Assembly: GCF_001189955.1 (NCBI RefSeq)
Contig: NZ_LFLT01000001.1
Span: forward strand, 124,001 to 188,000
Reading direction: 5' to 3'
From: Herbaspirillum chlorophenolicum
GTDB lineage: Bacteria; Pseudomonadota; Gammaproteobacteria; Burkholderiales; Burkholderiaceae_D
Length of the DNA: 64,000 nt
Of the stretch, positions 48,324-57,825 are shown one piece after another. The stretch's first letter is position 1; the number at the start of each line of letters is the position of its first letter. The notes beneath the pieces were generated by a model. It searched no databases and had not been told where the DNA came from. It worked only from the letters and a program-made list of their open reading frames with translations. Both the position numbers and the translations under genes were made by a program.

Positions 48324-49111
48324 GAGTGCGCCAGCAGATGCCGGGTCAGCTCTGCGAAACCCGCGCCGCAGGGCTCGCGGGTAATGAAATGCGGCGCATG
48401 CGCCAGGCGGTCGGTGAATTCGAGCACGTTGGCCACGCCCACCGACAGCGGGAAATAGGCGAACATCGGCGCATCGTTGGGCGAATCGCCGGCGAACACG
48501 CAGCGGTTGCGTTCTGCCTTGTCGGCCAGATCGACGCCATAGCGTTCGCGCATCATCAGTCGCGCCATGCTCAGTTTGTCGTAATCGCCGAACCAGCCAT
48601 TGACGTGGATGGAACTGATTTTCGCGGTCATACCCGATTCCTCCATGATTTGCACGATGCGGTCGATTGCATCGCGCGGCAGCGGCGGCACGTCCTCGCA
48701 GAAATCGATCGCCAGATCGTACTGGCGGCAGAACTGGTCGGAAGCGACCGCGCATCCGGGCACTTCATGCAGGATGCGTTCGCATACCGCCGCCAGGCGC
48801 TCGGCATTGCCGGCGCGGCTTTCTTCATCAAGAAGATGGCGTGTGCGCAGCTTGCCCGTGTGCGCGTCGTGCCACATATAAAGAGCCCCGTTTTCCCCAA
48901 TGATACCGTCCACCGGCCACAGGCGTGCGATCTGGTCGCACCATCCGGCCGGACGACCGGTCACGGGGATCACCCGCAGTCCCGCCCGCTGCAATTCTTC
49001 CAGGGCTTCATACGCCAGGGCGCTCAGTTTTCCGCCGGTGGTCAGCGTATCGTCGATATCGGTGAACACGGTGGCGACCCGCGCATGCGGCATTTGCTCC
49101 AGAGGTCTCAT
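48320..49111 (-). CDS. HAD-IIB family phosphatase
   Basis: A 263-residue phosphohydrolase. Motif I FTDIDDTLTTGG, motif II PVTGR, the cap domain and motif IV FAGDSPNDAPMF are clear. The cap and the GENGAL segment resemble mannosyl-3-phosphoglycerate/sucrose-phosphate/trehalose-phosphate phosphatases, but the substrate cannot be named. It overlaps both neighbours by ATGA, so the EEP protein, this one and the Na/Pi transporter should be made together. Confidence 0.87.
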   Translation of the reverse strand: MRPLEQMPHARVATVFTDIDDTLTTGGKLSALAYEALEELQRAGLRVIPVTGRPAGWCDQIARLWPVDGIIGENGALYMWHDAHTGKLRTRHLLDEESRAGNAERLAAVCERILHEVPGCAVASDQFCRQYDLAIDFCEDVPPLPRDAIDRIVQIMEESGMTAKISSIHVNGWFGDYDKLSMARLMMRERYGVDLADKAERNRCVFAGDSPNDAPMFAYFPLSVGVANVLEFTDRLAHAPHFITREPCGAGFAELTRHLLAHS

Positions 49112-49983
49112 CGCAACTCCAGCAATTGCGGCTGATGGTCGGAGGACTGCGTATGGCCGTCGACTTCAAAGGCGCGTAGATGCGGCAGCAGGTCTTCGCT
49201 GGCGAAGATGAAGTCGCAGGTGAACGCTTCGGGCCATTGGTCTCGGTCATATTGACCGACATTGATCGGATGCGCTTGGTTCCCGTGCAGGTGCTGCCAG
49301 GCGTCCACCAGGCGCGGCACATGTTGCGACGCATTGCCGTCGCGGCCGGCGAACGGCTCCTGCAGGCGCGCATGCATCGGATCTTCCGGGCGGAAGTTGA
49401 AATCGCCGGTAAGGATGGTCTTGGTGGCGTGCGGGAAGACGTGATAGGGCGAGCCGCGGCGGTCCACCGCCATCTCGCCGGCGGCCCGGCCGCAGGTCTC
49501 TTCGTGGCAGCGGCGGATGGCCTCCACCTGCGCACGGCGCTGCAGCGCGGAATAATATTCGAGGTGGGTATTCATCACCCGCACCGGGCCCAGCGGCGTG
49601 TCCAGCGTCACTTCCAGCAGCGTACGCGGCATGCTGATCACGTTCGGGTCGACCGGCCACGGCAACTGGTGGCGCAACACGCGCTGCACCGGATAGCGCG
49701 ACAGCACCATGTTGCCGAAGCAGCGGCGCCCGCCGTCGGCGGCGATCACGTCGACGCCGGCGATGGGTACCGGCGTGAAGCCGGGCAGCAATTGCGCGAA
49801 CTGCTCGAACTGATTTTCGCCGGCGCTGCCGGCCAGGCCCGGCGCCGGATAATTGGCGCCCACTTCCTGCAGGCACAGCACGTCGAAGTCGCCCATGGCG
49901 CGTGCGTCGCGCACGATGCGGGCCGGATCCACGTGGCCGTCAATGCCGCGGGCCCACTGGATGTTCCAGCTGATGAGTTTCAT
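49108..49983 (-). CDS. Endonuclease/exonuclease/phosphatase (EEP) superfamily protein
   Basis: A 291-residue phosphodiesterase/phosphomonoesterase fold. MKLISWNIQWARG, LCLQEVG with the metal Glu, NTHLEYYSALQRRAQ, TGDFNFRPED and SSDHQP place it firmly in the EEP superfamily. Such enzymes include inositol phosphatases, sphingomyelinases and nucleases. There is no signal peptide, so it is cytosolic. AAGGAAG precedes the ATG. It follows the UgpE-like gene by 118 bases, where a ugpQ phosphodiesterase gene may occur in other ugp operons; substrate inferred, not shown. Confidence 0.88.
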   Translation of the reverse strand: MKLISWNIQWARGIDGHVDPARIVRDARAMGDFDVLCLQEVGANYPAPGLAGSAGENQFEQFAQLLPGFTPVPIAGVDVIAADGGRRCFGNMVLSRYPVQRVLRHQLPWPVDPNVISMPRTLLEVTLDTPLGPVRVMNTHLEYYSALQRRAQVEAIRRCHEETCGRAAGEMAVDRRGSPYHVFPHATKTILTGDFNFRPEDPMHARLQEPFAGRDGNASQHVPRLVDAWQHLHGNQAHPINVGQYDRDQWPEAFTCDFIFASEDLLPHLRAFEVDGHTQSSDHQPQLLELR

Positions 49984-50063
49984 TTGTCTTCCTTGCTCTG
50001 TTGCCGACTGCGATGTTGCGATGTCGCGCGATGTAGGTGATGCCGTTTTATGGTCTTGCGAAG

Positions 50064-50081
50064 CGGGCCTCTGCGGGCCCG
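50064..50081 (-). other. Stem-loop between the UgpE-like and EEP genes
   Basis: CGGGCC / GGCCCG with a six-base loop lies in the 118-base gap. There is no T run on the minus strand, so it is a candidate processing or partial-termination element. Confidence 0.4.
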
Positions 50082-50101
50082 TCATTGTTTAGATAATTGT
50101 T

Positions 50102-50935
50102 TCAGCGGATGCCGGCGCGCATGAAGGACTGTACAAACTGGCGCTGGAACAGCAGGAAAGCCAGCAGCAGCGGCGCCGAGGTCATCAGGGTGGCGGCGGT
50201 GATGATGGACCAGTCCACGCCCTGGTCGGTAGAGGAGAACACCTGCAGGCCAACGGTGAGCGGGCGCGACTCGACCGAGTTGGTGACGATCAGCGGCCAC
50301 AGGAAGTTGTTCCAGTGGGTGCTGATCGAGACCAGCCCGAAGGCGATGTAGATCGGCTTGGCCAGCGGCACGTAGACCTGCATCAGCACCTGCAGCGCCG
50401 AGGCGCCTTCCACCGTGGCGGCCTCGTCCAGCTCGCGCGGCACGGTCTTGAAGGTCTGGCGCAGGAGGAAGATGCCGAAGGCCGAGGCGAAGTAGGGCAG
50501 GCCGATCGACAGGATGGTGTCGCGCAGGCCGAGCAGGTTCATGGTGTTGTAGTTCTCGACGATCAGGATGTCGGGCATCACCATCAGTTGCATCAGCACC
50601 AGCATGAACATCACATTGCTGCCGCGGAACTCGAAGCGGGCGAAGGCATAGGCCGCCAGCGTGGCCAGCAGCATCTGCGCCGCCAGGATCATGGTCACCA
50701 GCAGGAAGGTGTTCAGGAAGTAGCGCGGGAAAGGCGCGGCATCCCAGGCATTGGCGAAGTTCTGCAGCGTCAGCGGGGCCGAGAGCGAAAAGCGCGTGGC
50801 GAATTCGGACGGATGGAAGGCGGTCCACACCGCATACAGCAGCGGCAGCAACCACAGGAAGCCCAGCACCCAGGCCGAAATCGTTTCCAGCGCCTGGTTG
50901 CGCTCGCCAAAGGGATTGGAAGTCTGCGAGATCAT
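50102..50935 (-). CDS. ugpE: ABC transporter permease, UgpE-like
   Basis: A 277-residue MalG/UgpE-type inner-membrane permease with six membrane segments. The EAA loop is seen as ELDEAATVEGASALQVLMQVYVPLAKP. It starts in an ATGA overlap with the UgpA-like gene. The symbol rests on order and on the UgpB- and glpD-like neighbours. Confidence 0.85.
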   Translation of the reverse strand: MISQTSNPFGERNQALETISAWVLGFLWLLPLLYAVWTAFHPSEFATRFSLSAPLTLQNFANAWDAAPFPRYFLNTFLLVTMILAAQMLLATLAAYAFARFEFRGSNVMFMLVLMQLMVMPDILIVENYNTMNLLGLRDTILSIGLPYFASAFGIFLLRQTFKTVPRELDEAATVEGASALQVLMQVYVPLAKPIYIAFGLVSISTHWNNFLWPLIVTNSVESRPLTVGLQVFSSTDQGVDWSIITAATLMTSAPLLLAFLLFQRQFVQSFMRAGIR

Positions 50936-51807
50936 TGGTAATGGGTCCTGCGGTCGAGGATACGGAATTTAATGAAGGCAATGATGCCCAGCATGGCCAG
51001 CAGCACCACGGTCAGCGCGGCGGCATAGGACGAGTCCCAGAAGGCGAAGCCGACTTCATAGATGTAGTACAGCAGGAGCGAGCTGGCGTTGTCCGGCCCG
51101 CCCTTGGTCATCACCACGATATGGTCGACCAGGCGGAAGGAGTTGATCAGCGCATTGATCAGCACGAACAGCGTAGTCGGCATCAGGAGCGGGAACTGCA
51201 CCTTCCAGAAGTACTGCCAGCGCGTTGCGCCTTCCAGGCCGGCGGCCTCGGCCAGTACCGGTGAAATCTGCTGCAGCGCGGCCAGGTAGAAGATCATGAA
51301 GAAGCCGGCTTCCTTCCAGATCGCCACCACCATCATCGCGCCCAGCACGGTGTCCGGATTGCCCAGCCAGTTATGCGAGGGCAGGCCGAGCGCGGCGGTG
51401 ATCTGTTCCAGCAGGCCGTATTGCGGCGTGTAGAAGAACAGCCAGATATTGGCTACCGCGATCATCGGCAGCACGGTCGGCGTGAAATAGGCCAGGCGCA
51501 GCAGGCTGCGGCCGAACAGGCGGTCGTTGACCCACAGCGCCATCATGATGGCCAGCGCGATCGAGACCGGGATGGTGCCCAGCGCGAACCACAGGTTGTT
51601 GAAGAAGGCGCGCCAGAATACCGGGTCGTCGGCCATCAGCGCATAGTTCTCCAGGCCGACGAACACCGACGGGTTGGCACCCTTGGGCGTGGAGAAGAAG
51701 CTGTGCCAGATGGTGGCTACGGCCGGGTAGTGGGTGAAGGCGACCAGCAGCACCATGGCCGGCAACAGCAGCAGCCAGGGTGTGACGGAAGAATGGGTAC
51801 GGTTCAT
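50932..51807 (-). CDS. ugpA: ABC transporter permease, UgpA-like
   Basis: A 291-residue MalF/UgpA-type permease with six membrane segments. The EAA loop is LAEAAGLEGATRWQYFWKVQFPLLMP. It is preceded by a 147-base gap after the binding-protein gene that holds a large stem-loop (51879-51930), a common device for making more binding protein than permease. Confidence 0.85.
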   Translation of the reverse strand: MNRTHSSVTPWLLLLPAMVLLVAFTHYPAVATIWHSFFSTPKGANPSVFVGLENYALMADDPVFWRAFFNNLWFALGTIPVSIALAIMMALWVNDRLFGRSLLRLAYFTPTVLPMIAVANIWLFFYTPQYGLLEQITAALGLPSHNWLGNPDTVLGAMMVVAIWKEAGFFMIFYLAALQQISPVLAEAAGLEGATRWQYFWKVQFPLLMPTTLFVLINALINSFRLVDHIVVMTKGGPDNASSLLLYYIYEVGFAFWDSSYAAALTVVLLAMLGIIAFIKFRILDRRTHYQ

Positions 51808-51954: not shown

Positions 51955-53238
51955 TTAACGGCCGTAGGAACGCAGGATGCGGTCCGATTCGCGCTGGGCG
52001 TCCTTCAACGCCGCTTCCGGCGTCTTGGTACCGGACAGGGCGGCTTGCAGGTTGTCGTTCAGCGCCTTGGTCACACGCTGGTTGTCATGCGTCGACAGCT
52101 CGGCCACGCCGTACTTCATCTGCTCGCGCGCCACATCGGCGGCTGGTACTTCCTGCAGGTACTTCTTCATTTCTGGCGTATCCCAAGCATCCTGGCGCGG
52201 GGCCACGTAGCCGGTGGCGATCGACCATTGCGCCGCGCGCGCCGGTTCGGTGGCGAAGCGGATGAACTTCATCGCCGCCTTTTGCTGCTCCGGCGAGGTC
52301 TTGTTGAAGACGTAGAAGTTACCGCCGCCGGTCGGGCTGCCCGGATGCTTGTTACCCGGCAGCATGGCCACGCCGAACGGGAAGCTCGCGTTGCTGCGGA
52401 TGTTGGTCAGGTTGCCGGTGGTGGTCCACACCATGGCGGCCTTCTGCTCCAGGAAGTCCTTGGGCGTGGTGCCCCACTCGATCGTGCCGGATGGCATTAC
52501 CTTGTCCTTGGCGGCCAGGTCGACCCAATGCTGCAGCGCCTGAACCGCGCCCGGCTTGTCGAAGTAGGTCTTGGTGCCGGCACTGTTCATCAGGATGGTG
52601 TCGTTGGACGCGGTCATGGCCTGGAACATCCAGTAGCCGAAGCCGGTCGAGGGGATCTTCACGCCCCACTGGCTGACGTTGCCCGATGCGTCGCGCTTGG
52701 TCAGCTTCTTGGCGGCTTCAACCATGTCGGTCCAGGTGGCGGGCGCCTTGTCCGGGTTCAGGCCGGCTTCCTTGAACAGGTTCTTGTTGTAGTACATGAC
52801 GATGGTCGAACGCTGGAACGGCACGCCCCAGGTCTTGCCGCCGGTCTGGCTGTTCTCCATGAAGCCCTTGTAGAAGCCGTCAATCCAGGGCTTGTCGTTG
52901 GCCAGGCCATCGATGGGTACGATGGCGTTTTCATCGATCAGGGTGAACAGGTCGGTGGACAGCAGCACCGCCAGCGTCGGCGGAGTGCCGCTCTTGAATG
53001 CGGTCAGCGCCTTGACGATGCTTTCCTGGTAGGTGCCGGCATAGACTGCCTTGACCTTGATGTCCGGGTTGGCCTTTTCGAAGTCGGCCACCATGCTGTC
53101 GATGGTCTTGGTAACGGCGCCGCCGACGGCGACCGGGTAGTAGAAGCTGATTTCGACCGGGTTGGCGGCGAAGGCGCTGGCGCCGAAAACGGCGCTGACG
53201 GCCAGGGCGGCCACGGATTTCAGAATTGCTCTACGCAT
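51955..53238 (-). CDS. ugpB: ABC transporter substrate-binding protein, UgpB-like
   Basis: A 427-residue periplasmic binding protein with signal peptide (MRRAILKSVAALAVSAVFGASAFA). The SBP family 1 features are GTYQESIVKALTAFKSGTPPTLAVL, GVPFQRSTIVMYYNKNLFKEAGL and the C-terminal GKKT-like SGTKTPEAALKDAQRE. This order of segments resembles E. coli UgpB, which binds glycerol-3-phosphate and glycerophosphodiesters. The start at 53238 fits the signal peptide; a 13-codon extension is rejected. Confidence 0.87.
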   Translation of the reverse strand: MRRAILKSVAALAVSAVFGASAFAANPVEISFYYPVAVGGAVTKTIDSMVADFEKANPDIKVKAVYAGTYQESIVKALTAFKSGTPPTLAVLLSTDLFTLIDENAIVPIDGLANDKPWIDGFYKGFMENSQTGGKTWGVPFQRSTIVMYYNKNLFKEAGLNPDKAPATWTDMVEAAKKLTKRDASGNVSQWGVKIPSTGFGYWMFQAMTASNDTILMNSAGTKTYFDKPGAVQALQHWVDLAAKDKVMPSGTIEWGTTPKDFLEQKAAMVWTTTGNLTNIRSNASFPFGVAMLPGNKHPGSPTGGGNFYVFNKTSPEQQKAAMKFIRFATEPARAAQWSIATGYVAPRQDAWDTPEMKKYLQEVPAADVAREQMKYGVAELSTHDNQRVTKALNDNLQAALSGTKTPEAALKDAQRESDRILRSYGR

Positions 53239-53324
53239 GATTGCGTCTCTCCCATAAGGTTGAAAAGTTGGTTGCAACTTGGCGGTTGCTATTGTTGGGT
53301 CTCACTCTGCCGGCATGGGCCGGT

Positions 53325-54377
53325 TTAGTTGGGATGACGTCGCATCCCGGTCTGCCTGTCGAAGAAATACTGATCCTTTGCGTCCCAGTTGAGCCGGACG
53401 CGGTCGCCTGCGCGCAGCGACAACTGGCCGGGTACGCGCACCAGCAATGCCGCGTCGCCGACCTTGGCGCCGATGATGGTGTCGGCGCCGAAATATTCGA
53501 CCGTCTCTACTACCGCCGCCACGCCCGCCTCATTCAGGGTGATGTGCTCCGGGCGCAGGCCCAGTTGCCATTGTTCGCCGCCGCTGCCGGTCGTCACCGC
53601 CGGGCCATCGCTGCCTTCGATGACCAGGCCGCCAGCACTCTGCACCAGCGGCAGGATGTTCATCGGCGGCGTGCCGATGAAGCGTGCTGCAAAGACCGTG
53701 GCCGGCTGTGCGTACAGTTCGGCCGGCGGCGCGTTCTGTTCGATCTTGCCGTCGCGCAGCAGGATTACCTGGTCGGCCATGCTCATCGCCTCGGTCTGGT
53801 CGTGGGTGACGTAGATCATGGTCATGTTGAGTTGCTGCTGCAGGGCGCGGATCTCGCGCCGCATCTCTTGCCGCAGCTGGGCGTCGAGGTTGGACAGCGG
53901 CTCGTCCATCAGGCACACCGGTGCGTCGGCGATGATCGCCCGGCCCAGCGCCACGCGCTGCTGCTGGCCGCCGGACAATTGGCCCGGGCGGCGATCCAGC
54001 AGGTGCGACAGGCCGAGGATGTCGGCCACGCGTTTGAGGCGCGGTTCAAAATCCTGCTTGGGTTCCTTGCGCACGCGCACGCCGAACAGGATGTTGTCGC
54101 GCACGTTCAGATGCGGGAACAGCGCGTATGACTGGAACACCATGGCGATCTTGCGCTGCGCCGGCGGCAGGTTGGTGACGTCGCGCTCGCCGATGCGGAT
54201 GGTGCCGGTAGTGGGAATGTCCAGCCCGGCGATCAGGCGCAGGGTGGTCGACTTGCCGCAGCCGGACGGCCCCAGCAAGACGGTGAAATCGCCCGACTTC
54301 ACTTCGAAGTCGATGCCCTTGACGGCCTGGGCTTCGCCCCAGCTCTTGGTAATGCCTTGCAACGAAATTGCTGCCAT
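53325..54377 (-). CDS. ugpC: ABC transporter ATPase, UgpC/MalK-like
   Basis: A 350-residue ATPase with Walker A GPSGCGKST, signature LSGGQQQRVALGRA, Walker B VCLMDEPLSNLD, H-loop YVTHDQTEAMSM and a C-terminal TOBE domain (from about residue 235). Such long ATPases serve CUT1-type sugar and glycerol-phosphate importers. It is preceded by a 110-base gap after glpD that carries operator-like dyads. Confidence 0.92.
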   Translation of the reverse strand: MAAISLQGITKSWGEAQAVKGIDFEVKSGDFTVLLGPSGCGKSTTLRLIAGLDIPTTGTIRIGERDVTNLPPAQRKIAMVFQSYALFPHLNVRDNILFGVRVRKEPKQDFEPRLKRVADILGLSHLLDRRPGQLSGGQQQRVALGRAIIADAPVCLMDEPLSNLDAQLRQEMRREIRALQQQLNMTMIYVTHDQTEAMSMADQVILLRDGKIEQNAPPAELYAQPATVFAARFIGTPPMNILPLVQSAGGLVIEGSDGPAVTTGSGGEQWQLGLRPEHITLNEAGVAAVVETVEYFGADTIIGAKVGDAALLVRVPGQLSLRAGDRVRLNWDAKDQYFFDRQTGMRRHPN

Positions 54378-54421
54378 CCCGCGTTCCCCTTGCTATTCGG
54401 TCGGTGTCTCTTGGTGCTGAT

Positions 54422-54481
54422 CCGTTCATTGCAGCAGGACTGCGCTGAACGGCTGTAATCGTTTTCACGCGCGGCGTGAAA
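54422..54481. promoter_or_regulatory. Operator-like dyads before the UgpC-like gene
   Basis: A perfect inverted repeat CCGTTCA (54422-54428) / TGAACGG (54446-54452) lies in the glpD-ugpC gap. The right half extends to TGAACGGCTGTAATC, close to TGAACGTTTGTAACA at the regulator promoter. A second dyad TTTCACGC / GCGTGAAA (54463-54481) follows. Confidence 0.55.
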
Positions 54482-54487
54482 TCCTGC

Positions 54488-56065
54488 TCAATCGTTCTTG
54501 GCCTGCATGCGGCTCGGGCAAAAGCGGTTGACGCTGAATTCGGTAAACCAGGCCTTGAACTCCTGCCGCTGCTGTTCGGTCATGTGCAGGCCGCACTTGG
54601 TGCGGCGCCACAACACATCGTCGGCTTCGCAGGCCCATTCATGCACGGCCAGGTATTCCACTTCGCGCTGCCGCAGTCCGCCGCCGAAATCGCGTCCCAG
54701 TTCGGCGGAGGTTTGTGCTTCCCGCAGGATGCTGTGGCTCTTCAAGCCGTGGCGGGAAAACAGGCGCGCCAGATAGGCGGCATCGAGCTGCGCATACTTC
54801 TTTTGCAACCGTGCCACTTCGTCGGCCCGGTCGGCGCGCTTGAACTTGGCGCCGGGCAGGGCCTCGGTCGCGGTCCAGGAGGCGCGGTGCGCGCGGCTTT
54901 CCATCCAGGGCGCCAGCTTGTCCATGACCGACTCGGCCAGGCGGCGGTAGGTAGTGATCTTGCCGCCGTAGACCGAGACGCAGGGCAGTTCGCGTTCGGA
55001 CTGCAGCACCAGCGTGTAGTCGCGGGTGACGGCCGACGGATTGTCGGATTCGTCGTCGAACAGCGGACGCACGCCGGCGTAGCGCCAGGCGATGTCCCGT
55101 TCGTTGATCGGGTGTGCCAGGTATTGGTTGACCGCGCGCAGCAGGTAGGCCTCTTCCTCGGCGCTGATCTGCGCGCCGTGGTCCATGTTTTCTTGCGGGA
55201 CGTCGGTGGTGCCGATCAGGGTGTAGCGTTCTTCATAAGGAATCATGAAGACGATGCGCTTGTCATCGTTCTGCAGGATGTAGGCGTGTTCACCGTCGAA
55301 CAGGCGCGGCACCACGATATGGCTGCCGCGCACCAGCTTGACGGCGGCGTGCTTGGCCTGGTCGCCGGGGCTTGCATTGAGCAGATGATCCATTTTGGCC
55401 ACCCAGGGACCGGCCGTATTGACGATGGCGCGCGCCTGCACGGTGCTGCGTTCGCCGGTGCGGGTGTTTTCCAGCGTGCAGACCCAGCGGTTGTCGCCGC
55501 CGTCCTGGGATTCGCTGCGCTGCGCATCGACCAGGCGGGTGCGCGCCATGATTTCGGCGCCGTACTCCTGTGCGGAGAGCAGGTTGAAGATGACCAGCCG
55601 GGCATCGTCGACCCAGGCATCGGAATAGGCGAAGCCGCGCGTGATGCTCTTTTTCAGGCCGCTGGGATGCACCATGCGGTTCAGATGCACGCCCCTCGAT
55701 TTGGGCAGGCTGATGCGGCCGCCGATGTGGTCGTACAGCCAGAGGCCCAGGCGGATCATCCAGCGCGGGCGCAGGCCGGCCACGTGCGGCATGACGAAGC
55801 GCAGCGGCCAGGCGATGTGCGGGGCGATGTCGAGCAGGTGTTCGCGTTCGGACAGCGCTTCGGCCACCAGCCGGAATTCGTAGTATTCGAGATAGCGCAG
55901 GCCGCCATGGATCAGCTTGGTGCTGGCCGAGGAGGTCGCGCCGGCGAAGTCGGCCTGTTCGCACAAGGCCACCGACAGGCCGCGTCCGGCGGCATCGCGC
56001 GCCACGCCGGCGCCATTGATGCCGCCGCCGATCACCAGGATGTCGTAAAGGTGGTTGGTATTCAT
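54488..56065 (-). CDS. glpD: Aerobic glycerol-3-phosphate dehydrogenase
   Basis: A membrane-associated flavoenzyme oxidising glycerol-3-phosphate to dihydroxyacetone phosphate and feeding electrons to quinone. The 525-residue protein has the FAD motif VIGGGINGAGVARDAAGRG, the SASTKLIHGGLRYLEYYEF signature and the C-terminal DNA-like helical domain of GlpD. The start overlaps the regulator stop by ATGA, coupling the two. A glycerol kinase gene is not seen nearby. Confidence 0.96.
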   Translation of the reverse strand: MNTNHLYDILVIGGGINGAGVARDAAGRGLSVALCEQADFAGATSSASTKLIHGGLRYLEYYEFRLVAEALSEREHLLDIAPHIAWPLRFVMPHVAGLRPRWMIRLGLWLYDHIGGRISLPKSRGVHLNRMVHPSGLKKSITRGFAYSDAWVDDARLVIFNLLSAQEYGAEIMARTRLVDAQRSESQDGGDNRWVCTLENTRTGERSTVQARAIVNTAGPWVAKMDHLLNASPGDQAKHAAVKLVRGSHIVVPRLFDGEHAYILQNDDKRIVFMIPYEERYTLIGTTDVPQENMDHGAQISAEEEAYLLRAVNQYLAHPINERDIAWRYAGVRPLFDDESDNPSAVTRDYTLVLQSERELPCVSVYGGKITTYRRLAESVMDKLAPWMESRAHRASWTATEALPGAKFKRADRADEVARLQKKYAQLDAAYLARLFSRHGLKSHSILREAQTSAELGRDFGGGLRQREVEYLAVHEWACEADDVLWRRTKCGLHMTEQQRQEFKAWFTEFSVNRFCPSRMQAKND

Positions 56066-57054
56066 GTCGTGCTTTCCTTGCCGTCGGCTGCGCGGATCTG
56101 TTCCACCAGCAGGCGTGCGCTCGGCTCGTCGATCACCAGTTCATTGATGAAGCCGCCTTGCAGCGCTGCGCGCAGGCCCGGGATCTTGCCGCGGCCCGAC
56201 ACCACGCAGATCGAATGCGCGGCGCGCTGGAAGCAATCCATGTCGGGGCCGCTGCTGCGCGCGTTGAGTGCGACGTCGCGCCAGCTGCCGTCTTCGCGGA
56301 AGAACACGGTGGCGATATCGCCTACCAGGCCTTCTTCCCGGATCAGCTTGCGCTCTTCGTCGGATAAATAGCCGCCGGTATGGACGTGGCTGCCGGTGGC
56401 TTCGGCGCCGATGGAGAACAGCAGGATGGAAGCGCTGTCCTGCAGCGCGCGGATGGATTTGATGCTTCTTTCGCGCCACAGCGCGGTGCGGGTGTCGGCG
56501 TAGTCGAAAAAGGCCGGCACCGGGAAATGGTGGGCGCGCGCGCCGTAGTTCTGCGCGAAGCGCGAGACGATGGATTCGCCGATGGTATTGACGAAATTGA
56601 GGCCGGTGCCGGAGCCGTTCAACTGCACCACGTCGACATCATGGACGTGCTTGGGCAGCAGCCTGTCGGCGATTTCGGCCACGGTGGTGCCCCAGGCCAG
56701 GCCGATCACGGTGGACGGCGCCACCAGCGAACTGACATAGGCGGCGGCATGTCCGGCCACGCGCTGCAGGGTTTCCTTCTCGGTGGCGGCGGCCGAGACC
56801 GGCACCACCTGGATCGAGCGCAACTGGTAGCGTTCGGCGATGGCGGTTTCGAGGTTGCCGGAGACTTCCTGCGGATCGTGCACGCGGATTTCCACCAGGC
56901 CGCGGTCCAGTGCATAGGACAGCAGGCGCGACACCGTAGCGCGCGAAGTGCCGATTTCCTCGGCGATCGCGGCAGTGGTCATGTTCTGGAAGTAATACAG
57001 GCGCGCTACGCGCACGGCCATGTACGCTGTTTCCTGGCGTTCCCCGTTAGCCAT
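56062..57054 (-). CDS. SorC/DeoR-type sugar-binding transcriptional regulator
   Basis: A 330-residue regulator with an N-terminal helix-turn-helix (MTTAAIAEEIGTSRATVSRLL around residues 25-45) and a large sugar-phosphate-binding domain with the motif STVIGLAWGTTVAEIADRL and VVSGRGKIPGLRAAL. SorC proteins respond to phosphorylated sugars such as glycerol-3-phosphate-like ligands. It is first in the minus-strand run and overlaps glpD, so it probably controls its own operon. TGAACG boxes flank its promoter. Confidence 0.88.
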   Translation of the reverse strand: MANGERQETAYMAVRVARLYYFQNMTTAAIAEEIGTSRATVSRLLSYALDRGLVEIRVHDPQEVSGNLETAIAERYQLRSIQVVPVSAAATEKETLQRVAGHAAAYVSSLVAPSTVIGLAWGTTVAEIADRLLPKHVHDVDVVQLNGSGTGLNFVNTIGESIVSRFAQNYGARAHHFPVPAFFDYADTRTALWRERSIKSIRALQDSASILLFSIGAEATGSHVHTGGYLSDEERKLIREEGLVGDIATVFFREDGSWRDVALNARSSGPDMDCFQRAAHSICVVSGRGKIPGLRAALQGGFINELVIDEPSARLLVEQIRAADGKESTT

Positions 57055-57064
57055 TTTTCTCGCT

Positions 57065-57199
57065 TGAACGAATGATCATTAATATTGAACGTTTGTAACA
57101 ATAATGAAATTGATGCGATAAGTAAAGGCTTATCGATGTGGCTCTGCAGCAGTTGGGGATAGTAATGAGCTTTTGTTACGGCTTGATGAACGAATGTTC
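57065..57199. promoter_or_regulatory. Three TGAACG boxes at the regulator promoter
   Basis: TGAACGAATGATC (57065-57077), TGAACGTTTGTAA (57086-57098) and TGAACGAATGTTC (57187-57199) share the core TGAACGnnTG. The first two are 21 bases apart (two helical turns) and touch the predicted -10 and start site; the third is 101 bases further upstream, suited to a DNA loop. Confidence 0.6.
57098..57126 (-). promoter_or_regulatory. Predicted promoter of the SorC-glpD-ugp operon
   Basis: On the minus strand TTTACT (57121-57126) and TATTGT (57098-57103) are 17 bases apart. The start would lie near 57091, within the second TGAACG box. Confidence 0.5.
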
Positions 57200-57294
57200 T
57201 GAGGATTTTTGAGGGAGGGAAGCGGCAGGATTCATCCCGCACAGGGTGGGGCTTGACGCCTGCTGCCATGCGCCGGGCTGCATGCATTGCGCCA

Positions 57295-57326
57295 GAAAAA
57301 AAGCGACGCCAGGCGTCGCTTTTGAT
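57295..57326 (-). terminator. Terminator after the GNAT gene
   Basis: AAGCGACGCC / GGCGTCGCTT with a one-base centre and a run of Ts on the minus strand lies 20 bases past the GNAT stop codon. Confidence 0.85.
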
Positions 57327-57345
57327 CGAGGGAGAGCCGTCCGGC

Positions 57346-57825
57346 TCAGTACCGCATTACCCGGCGCATCACGATAGGCGGCGCTTCGTTCGGGTTGGCG
57401 CGGGTGTATTCGAGTTCGGGGGCGATTTCGAAGCCGAAGGCGGCATACAGGTCGACCAGTTGCGCCTGGTCGGTACGCACGGCCAGCCGCAGCTCGCGCA
57501 CATCGGCGGCCTGGGCGCGGTGGATTAGCGCTTCCATCAGGTGCTGCGAGAGGCGTTCGCCGCGGAAGGCGGGCGAGATGCCCATGCGGCGGATTTCCCA
57601 GACATCCCGTTCGGTATCCAGCGGCAGCCAGCGCACCGAGCCGGCGGGAATTTCCCCGCGTAGCAGGATGAAGGCGCCGCCATGCTGCAGGTCTTCGATG
57701 ACGTGGTCCGGCTCCTCGCGGTGGCCGGACGAATTCGGAGCCACCTTGTTGGCCCAGCTGGTGCGGGTCAGTTCCGCAATCAGCAGGGCATCTTCAGAGG
57801 TGGCTTCGCGTATCAGCAGTTCCAT
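57346..57825 (-). CDS. GNAT family N-acetyltransferase
   Basis: A 159-residue acetyltransferase. MELLIREATSEDALLIAELTRTSW is the opening strand-helix, GSVRWLPLDTERDVWEIRRMGISPAFRGERLSQHLME carries the acetyl-CoA loop, and YAAFGFEIAPELEY is the closing segment. The substrate is unknown. It is downstream of metG on the same strand, 39 bases away, and may be cotranscribed. Confidence 0.85.
   Translation of the reverse strand: MELLIREATSEDALLIAELTRTSWANKVAPNSSGHREEPDHVIEDLQHGGAFILLRGEIPAGSVRWLPLDTERDVWEIRRMGISPAFRGERLSQHLMEALIHRAQAADVRELRLAVRTDQAQLVDLYAAFGFEIAPELEYTRANPNEAPPIVMRRVMRY

Follow-up and report, generated by a model that had tools for sequence, protein, structure and literature searches.

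The boxes at 57065/57086 and 57166/57187 very likely serve as a pair of tandem operators for the SorC/DeoR-type regulator whose gene lies at 56062–57054; the regulator–glpD–ugp operon would be controlled through them, and a glycerol phosphate would release the protein from them. The dyads, their register, their conservation in two phyla and their presence at glpD or ugp-like genes where the regulator stands apart were computed directly. For the promoter, the operator reading is well supported by sequence comparison; a looping model with a second target in the glpD–ugpC gap is not supported.

The window, by which the whole 64-kb stretch of analysed DNA is meant, covers C1:124001–188000 of a 5.3-Mb genome in 192 contigs. 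On its minus strand the regulator gene is followed by glpD, by ugpC-, ugpB-, ugpA- and ugpE-like genes and then by a hydrolase gene, which is probably the last gene of the operon:

56062–57054, minus strand: SorC-family DeoR-type regulator, 330 aa (PF04198, 9.4e-61; Bacillus subtilis DeoR 8r7y, 1.2e-49 over residues 8–318)
54488–56065, minus strand: glpD, aerobic glycerol-3-phosphate dehydrogenase (NF008899, 703.9 bits, cut-off 360), overlapping the regulator gene by 4 bp
53325–54377, minus strand: ugpC-like transporter ATPase (NF008653, 412.3 bits, just below the cut-off of 432)
51955–53277, minus strand: ugpB-like substrate-binding protein (SBP_bac_8; NF008211, 174 bits against a cut-off of 411)
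50932–51807, minus strand: ugpA-like permease (131.8 bits against a cut-off of 335)
50102–50935, minus strand: ugpE-like permease (112.2 bits against a cut-off of 297)
49108–50085, minus strand: endonuclease/exonuclease/phosphatase-family hydrolase (PF03372, 2.1e-9)

The genome holds a single glpD match at E 1e-60. Because the ugp-like proteins score under their NCBIfam cut-offs, the substrate of the transporter is a guess. The genes of H. seropedicae that respond to phosphate supply include glycerol-3-phosphate transporter genes (PMC8222739). Upstream, between a GNAT gene and the regulator, a perfect 12-bp inverted repeat, AAAAGCGACGCC/GGCGTCGCTTTT, at 57299–57323 is a probable bidirectional terminator; in four relatives (L039, L040, L041 and L044) these two genes are separated by a gene for an ABC-type ATPase in the opposite orientation.

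Tandem dyads at the regulator promoter

Plus-strand copies of TGAACGNNTG begin at 57065, 57086, 57187 and 54446, and an earlier note on this DNA had rightly placed TGAACGnnTG at these four positions. Taken alone, the excess of TGAACGNNTG in the window is modest (6 matches against 2.48 expected; 3 of 100 shuffles reach 6), and it is the clustering that is improbable. Three copies within 135 bp occurred in none of 300 first-order Markov windows and two copies within 30 bp in two of them, while three copies on one strand were seen in none of 5000 simulated 289-bp gaps of local composition. The boxes are thus confirmed as real and clustered beyond chance. TGAACGnnTG itself was ruled out as the motif because what recurs is two half-sites with a variable N4. 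Every TGAACG makes up half of a 14-bp dyad of approximately TGWNC-N4-GNWCA, and the operator unit is this dyad, repeated in tandem at a 21-bp register.

Related loci, 31 in number, were sorted by upstream region into group A (9, the window's clade), group B (10, including H. huttiense, H. aquaticum and H. frisingense GSF30) and group C (12, more diverged, with two loci from other genera). A symmetric matrix with its central four positions flat was trained solely on the 24 proximal boxes of the 12 group C loci. In the 64 kb, exactly two pairs score at least 8 with this matrix at register 21, and both lie upstream of the regulator: 57065–57099, over the inferred start site, and 57166–57200. The second includes a dyad absent from the earlier note, at 57166–57179, which stands 21 bp from 57187, the same spacing as that of 57065 and 57086. 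The elements are as follows:

57065–57078, minus strand: downstream box of the proximal tandem (TGAACGAATGATCA on the plus strand), a 14-bp dyad with the top single-box score of the window, 15.3; kept in 6/9 group A genomes
57086–57099, minus strand: upstream box of the proximal tandem (TGAACGTTTGTAAC on the plus strand), over the inferred start site and 21 bp from 57065; scores 4.5 alone
57098–57126, minus strand: inferred promoter P1, TTTACT-N17-TATTGT, read from sequence
57159–57164, minus strand: TACTAT next to the distal tandem, a possible -10 hexamer for a second promoter, suggested by TACTAT, TATCAT or TACCAT in groups A and B
57166–57179, minus strand: downstream box of the distal tandem (TGAGCTTTTGTTAC on the plus strand), 21 bp from the 57187 box and kept in 19/19 of the aligned groups A and B; scores 2.3 alone
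57187–57200, minus strand: upstream box of the distal tandem (TGAACGAATGTTCT on the plus strand), the second-best single box of the window at 12.6; 19/19 in groups A and B

The best two single boxes of the 64 kb are therefore those at 57065 and 57187, with partners at 57086 and 57166 that are weak alone. The proximal tandem scores 19.8, which none of 200 shuffles reaches, and the distal tandem 15.0. A loose tandem pattern gave 16 matches in the whole genome against 4 for a reversed control. Of the matches other than the two operators, L112 and L116 (rescored at 14–16) sit in long coding frames and were rejected as targets; L113, L123 and L125 rescore near 9–10.

The earlier note had the first two boxes touching a predicted -10 and start. 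The proximal tandem does cover the inferred start, spanning roughly -8 to +27 on P1, so that a bound tetramer should block initiation; the hexamers, however, are themselves inferred and weak, and a promoter scan at a 9-of-12 threshold found none at P1. The TTGATT/TATTGT positions that correspond to P1 are largely kept in group C. The role of the distal tandem is less clear than that of the proximal one. A TAYYAT sequence without a recognisable -35 abuts it, and most of the spacer (TCAAG) is also kept; at such a place an activator could contact RNA polymerase at a -35-less promoter. Activation is nevertheless unlikely, as binding of the proximal tandem should block the inferred start, the distal tandem would overlap the polymerase footprint, and the studied relatives DeoR and CggR are repressors (PMC11229326).

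In the preferred repressor model, two 14-bp dyads 21 bp, or two helical turns, apart would fit a SorC tetramer, with one DNA-binding dimer on each dyad and the dimers joined through their sugar-phosphate-binding domains. We infer binding by this regulator, the repressive sign and the effector, and, from homologues, the tetramer on DNA. When no inducer is present, the proximal tandem over the P1 start would be occupied and transcription of regulator, glpD and ugp genes blocked; the distal tandem would overlap the upstream part of the second, weaker promoter. A glycerol-phosphate metabolite would then free the protein from the DNA. The target genes glpD and ugp point to glycerol-3-phosphate as the most likely one, since glpD and a ugp-type importer have this metabolite in common.

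Conservation in Herbaspirillum, related genera and Actinobacteria

The proximal tandem, with its two 14-bp dyads at the 21-bp register, is found in 12/12 group C loci, which is so by construction and is no test because group C is the training set. Group A keeps the distal tandem in 9/9 genomes and the proximal one in 6/9, and group B has the distal tandem only (10/10). Phylogenetic footprinting, which the earlier note had proposed as a check, thus finds the promoter boxes kept across relatives, with the distal tandem in 19/19 of groups A and B; the boxes behave as an operator would, in keeping with the note's assignment of them to the SorC-type regulator. In the six group A genomes that carry both tandems, 95% of the 40 positions in half-sites do not vary, compared with 36% of the 121 positions elsewhere, related promoters not being independent samples. 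The group B tandems score lower (8.4–11.1), and one shuffle of 200 reaches the score in 4/10 of them. Looping between the two tandems, 101 bp apart, is possible but dispensable, since group B has the distal tandem alone and group C the proximal tandem alone.

The tandem also follows the target genes. In five related-genus loci where the regulator stands apart (L016–L020), no tandem lies upstream of the regulator (5/5). Four of these five genomes, all except G078, were examined over a longer stretch, and in 4/4 the tandem accompanies ugp-like or glpD genes: a ugpB-like gene 26–28% identical to the window's has one upstream (L129, L130), the divergent glpD/ugpC gap of L131 contains two, and the glpD of L132 has one upstream. 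Across 601 kb of 50 loci, every tandem scoring at least 12 lies upstream of the regulator or of those glpD or ugp-like target genes; 14 of the 50 have no tandem at this threshold, including seven of group B. A 26% paralogue scored as a negative (L002) has a best tandem that 111 of 200 shuffles reach. In the DNA examined, the regulator accompanies glpD alone in L053, L054 and L056–L058, and ugp alone in group B. The regulator occurs in 29/34 genomes of a genus sample, in 19/195 genomes and 5/44 genera of a family sample (1e-60), and in 2/349 genomes of an order-wide sample (E ≤1e-70), both of the latter from its own genus. The group B loci L043–L049 carry an operon without glpD; G129, G026 and G101 have a glpD at another place, no more than about 1 kb from a DeoR/GlpR-type gene.

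In other bacteria, glpD and ugp are targets of GlpR or Pho, and the promoter boxes could be operators of a conventional DeoR-family GlpR instead of the SorC protein. Such an assignment is highly improbable here: the tandem carriers G000 (the window's own genome), G206, G185, G100 and G039 have no PF00455 protein above the cut-off, and none of 20 glpD copies without a nearby SorC gene has a pair with a score over 0 within 300 bp upstream, six of these copies standing beside a DeoR/GlpR-type gene (G163, G142, G152, G101, G129 and G026).

Actinobacterial homologues are 35–52% identical to the regulator. Among 22 loci, 21 were long enough for scoring (L065 was dropped as too short), and with the group C matrix the best tandem lies beyond all 200 dinucleotide shuffles in 16 of the 21, several of the 16 being near-identical; it does not in the other five (L061, L066, L069, L070 and L077). 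The mean score peaks at register 21 with 13.8, the next value being 5.6. In 13 of the 22 loci the regulator has a divergent glpD relative (24–37% identity) as its neighbour; L065 and L070 are cut off. Seven loci (L071–L075, L077 and L079) have no glpD relative nearby, and the tandem is present in six of them (L071–L075 and L079).

A search of 149 Micrococcaceae genomes gave 95 with a match and 29 loci, 65 of the 95 yielding no locus; L145 was dropped as the same place as L078, and L146 and L149 repeat L063 and L078. The tandem lies beyond all 100 simple shuffles in 15/29 loci and not in the other 14, with L157, L158 and L159 plainly negative. The mean score again peaks at register 21 (6.4; next 2.0). 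A glpD-like gene is divergent in 28/29 loci, and the divergent gene of L161, L078 and L059 has glycerol-3-phosphate dehydrogenase as its best match, under the equivalog cut-off. In 13 Micrococcaceae loci (L162 and L165–L176), one dyad closely resembles TGCACAAACGTGCA and the other consists of only a GTCA half-site 21 bp away.

The gap between glpD and the ugpC-like gene

The fourth TGAACG box and its neighbour lie in this gap:

54422–54452, no strand assigned: CCGTTCA/TGAACGG inverted repeat with perfect 7-bp arms, inside 13-nt arms that are 85% complementary
54454–54467, minus strand: probable operator of a LacI-family regulator (TGAAAACGATTACA on the minus strand), with GTGAAAACGATT in 7/7 gaps and an identical 14-mer at a LacI gene

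In the earlier note, the boxes fit a repressor with two target sites, the gap copy being the second, and possible looping; the loop would span the 2.6 kb between promoter and gap. Two of the note's observations, which speak for this model, are accurate: the extended core TGAACGnnTGTAA is common to 57086 and 54446, with TGAACGNNTGTAA exact in the window only at these two places, and the perfect inverted repeat before the ugpC-like gene is present at 54422–54428 and 54446–54452. Conservation argues the other way. A long gap occurs in 7/9 group A genomes, the window's included; footprinting of these seven finds GTGAAAACGATT in all, TGAACG in four and the perfect repeat in two. The gene order is unchanged in L042 and L052 of group A, whose gaps are short (29 and 55 bp), and in L051 and L055 of group C, and all four lack both the LacI-type element and the repeat. 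No pair scoring at least 8 at register 21 occurs in the gap. The 54446 copy is therefore poorly supported as a second target, and a loop from gap to promoter is unsupported because TGAACG is kept in 4/7 and the repeat in 2/7 gaps, against 7/7 for the adjoining LacI-type element, which recurs at a LacI gene in 5/5 genomes; that all four boxes are SorC targets is very unlikely.

The conserved part of the gap is TGTAATCGTTTTCA (54454–54467), whose sole other identical copy in the genome is at the start of a LacI-family gene (C165:512–525, L202). LacI-family operators are typically near-palindromes with a central CG, and the gap element is of this form and also occurs at a regulator gene. The pattern TGAAAACGWTDDCA matched three to four times per genome in five genomes, the reversed control giving 0. 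In 5/5 genomes one of the matches is located where a LacI-family gene carrying the same N-terminal motif starts. Another is in the glpD–ugpC gap in G000, G206 and G163, and upstream of the SorC gene in G129 and G026. In group B, which lacks glpD in the operon and has ugpC directly after the regulator, a similar element is found upstream of the regulator, as TGAAAACGTTGTCA in 8/10 and TGAAAACGTTGCCA in 2/10. The LacI-type element thus seems to travel with the ugp transcription unit, and the site at 54454–54467 probably lets a second regulator control ugpC and the genes downstream. Third copies in G000 and G026 (L182, L186) were rejected as a common target, their neighbourhoods being different; L180, L183, L184 and L192 are further copies.

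In G129 (L203) the LacI gene heads a second transporter operon, in which a PhnS-like binding protein is encoded together with two permeases, a PhnT2-like ATPase and, in addition, a calcineurin-like phosphodiesterase, with all these proteins under equivalog cut-offs; for the G000 counterpart the scan covered the LacI protein and the phosphodiesterase only. According to PMC12718374, both glycerol-1- and glycerol-3-phosphate are taken up by GpxB, a member of the PhnT family, so the two transporters may share substrates, which is a lead only.

As for RNA structure, no Rfam family was found in 53200–57500, so the gap repeat was rejected as a structure of known type, and folds of the seven gaps, judged by eye, had no stem in common. 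A palindrome, TTTCACGC-GCG-GCGTGAAA, at 54463–54481 overlaps the LacI-type element and is not kept in L039–L041 and L127.

The regulator and known SorC-family systems

By domain content and homology, the regulator is a member of the SorC family, DeoR subclass. It combines an N-terminal helix-turn-helix, with HTH-type matches within residues 15–60, and a PF04198 effector domain (205.7 bits, cut-off 27), and its putative half-operators are spaced by about two helical turns, register 21 holding for the window and for homologues outside the training set. E. coli-type GlpR, which would serve the same genes, glpD and ugp, belongs to another protein family, DeoR (PF00455); the regulator has no PF00455 match at E 0.001. 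In its genome no PF00455 protein exceeds the cut-off, the one sub-threshold match reaching 24.5 bits against 31.8. Because the genome has no DeoR/GlpR-type repressor above the cut-off, the regulator may take the place of GlpR.

On balance, the evidence leans slightly towards a broader reading, in which an undescribed SorC/DeoR-type clade of Herbaspirillum, its kin and many Actinobacteria acts as a glycerol-3-phosphate repressor replacing GlpR. The clade would have retained its 21-bp tandem operator in both phyla, and in Herbaspirillum the ugp genes would also answer to a LacI-family protein that regulates a second organophosphate transporter; turnover of the operator, with the proximal tandem, both tandems or the distal one present, would be traceable within one genus. 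The kind of system, SorC/DeoR operators, is known; the glycerol-phosphate assignment and the occurrence in two phyla appear to be undescribed, and a literature search without RegPrecise or most subscription journals found no paper naming a SorC-type regulator of glpD. If true, this reading would provide SorC-family proteins that lack an assigned ligand (3nze among the relatives) with a function, target operon and operator, would explain glpD control in genomes without GlpR, and would offer a natural series of operator rearrangements showing how a tetrameric repressor tolerates promoter changes.

The closest solved relative is PDB 3nze, a putative sugar-binding regulator present as effector domain only (E 1.2e-62, residues 62–317). 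It has the QLNGAG and FPVPAFFD motifs of the actinobacterial glpD-linked homologues; no ligand or target is assigned to it in the results here, and its code is in no paper found by the literature search. CggR of B. subtilis, which acts at the gapA operator, is likewise a SorC-family protein with two palindromic half-operators bound by a dimer of dimers, and binds triose and hexose phosphates; it differs in its winged HTH, its CGGGAC-type half-sites and its operator position at +32 to +77 (PMC11229326).

The likeness to B. subtilis DeoR extends over the whole length (E 1.2e-49), although the regulator reaches 247.6 bits against a cut-off of 420 in the NCBIfam DeoR equivalog and so is not placed as a DeoR ortholog. 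The lysine of the DeoR motif VVQLKG, which we take to be the covalent-effector lysine, is Asn in the regulator and in 9/9 aligned sequences, and a covalent aldehyde effector is therefore unlikely for the regulator. The effector of DeoR itself is deoxyribose-5-phosphate, covalently bound, and its base contacts are made via R34 and R39 (PMC11229326). These arginines correspond to R38 and R43 of the regulator and are invariant in 9/9 aligned sequences, so both base-contacting arginines of DeoR are present. In the same paper, the DeoR operator for a tetramer is TGAACAAAATTTCA and TTTACATATGTTCA, 22 bp apart, the split into 14-mers being a division of the present analysis. The half-operators at dra-nupC-pdp, TGAAC-N4-TTTCA and TTTAC-N4-GTTCA, have the DeoR-like form that is found here too, whereas the register is 21 bp here instead of 22 bp, and the targets are glpD and ugp, unlike DeoR's dra-nupC-pdp.
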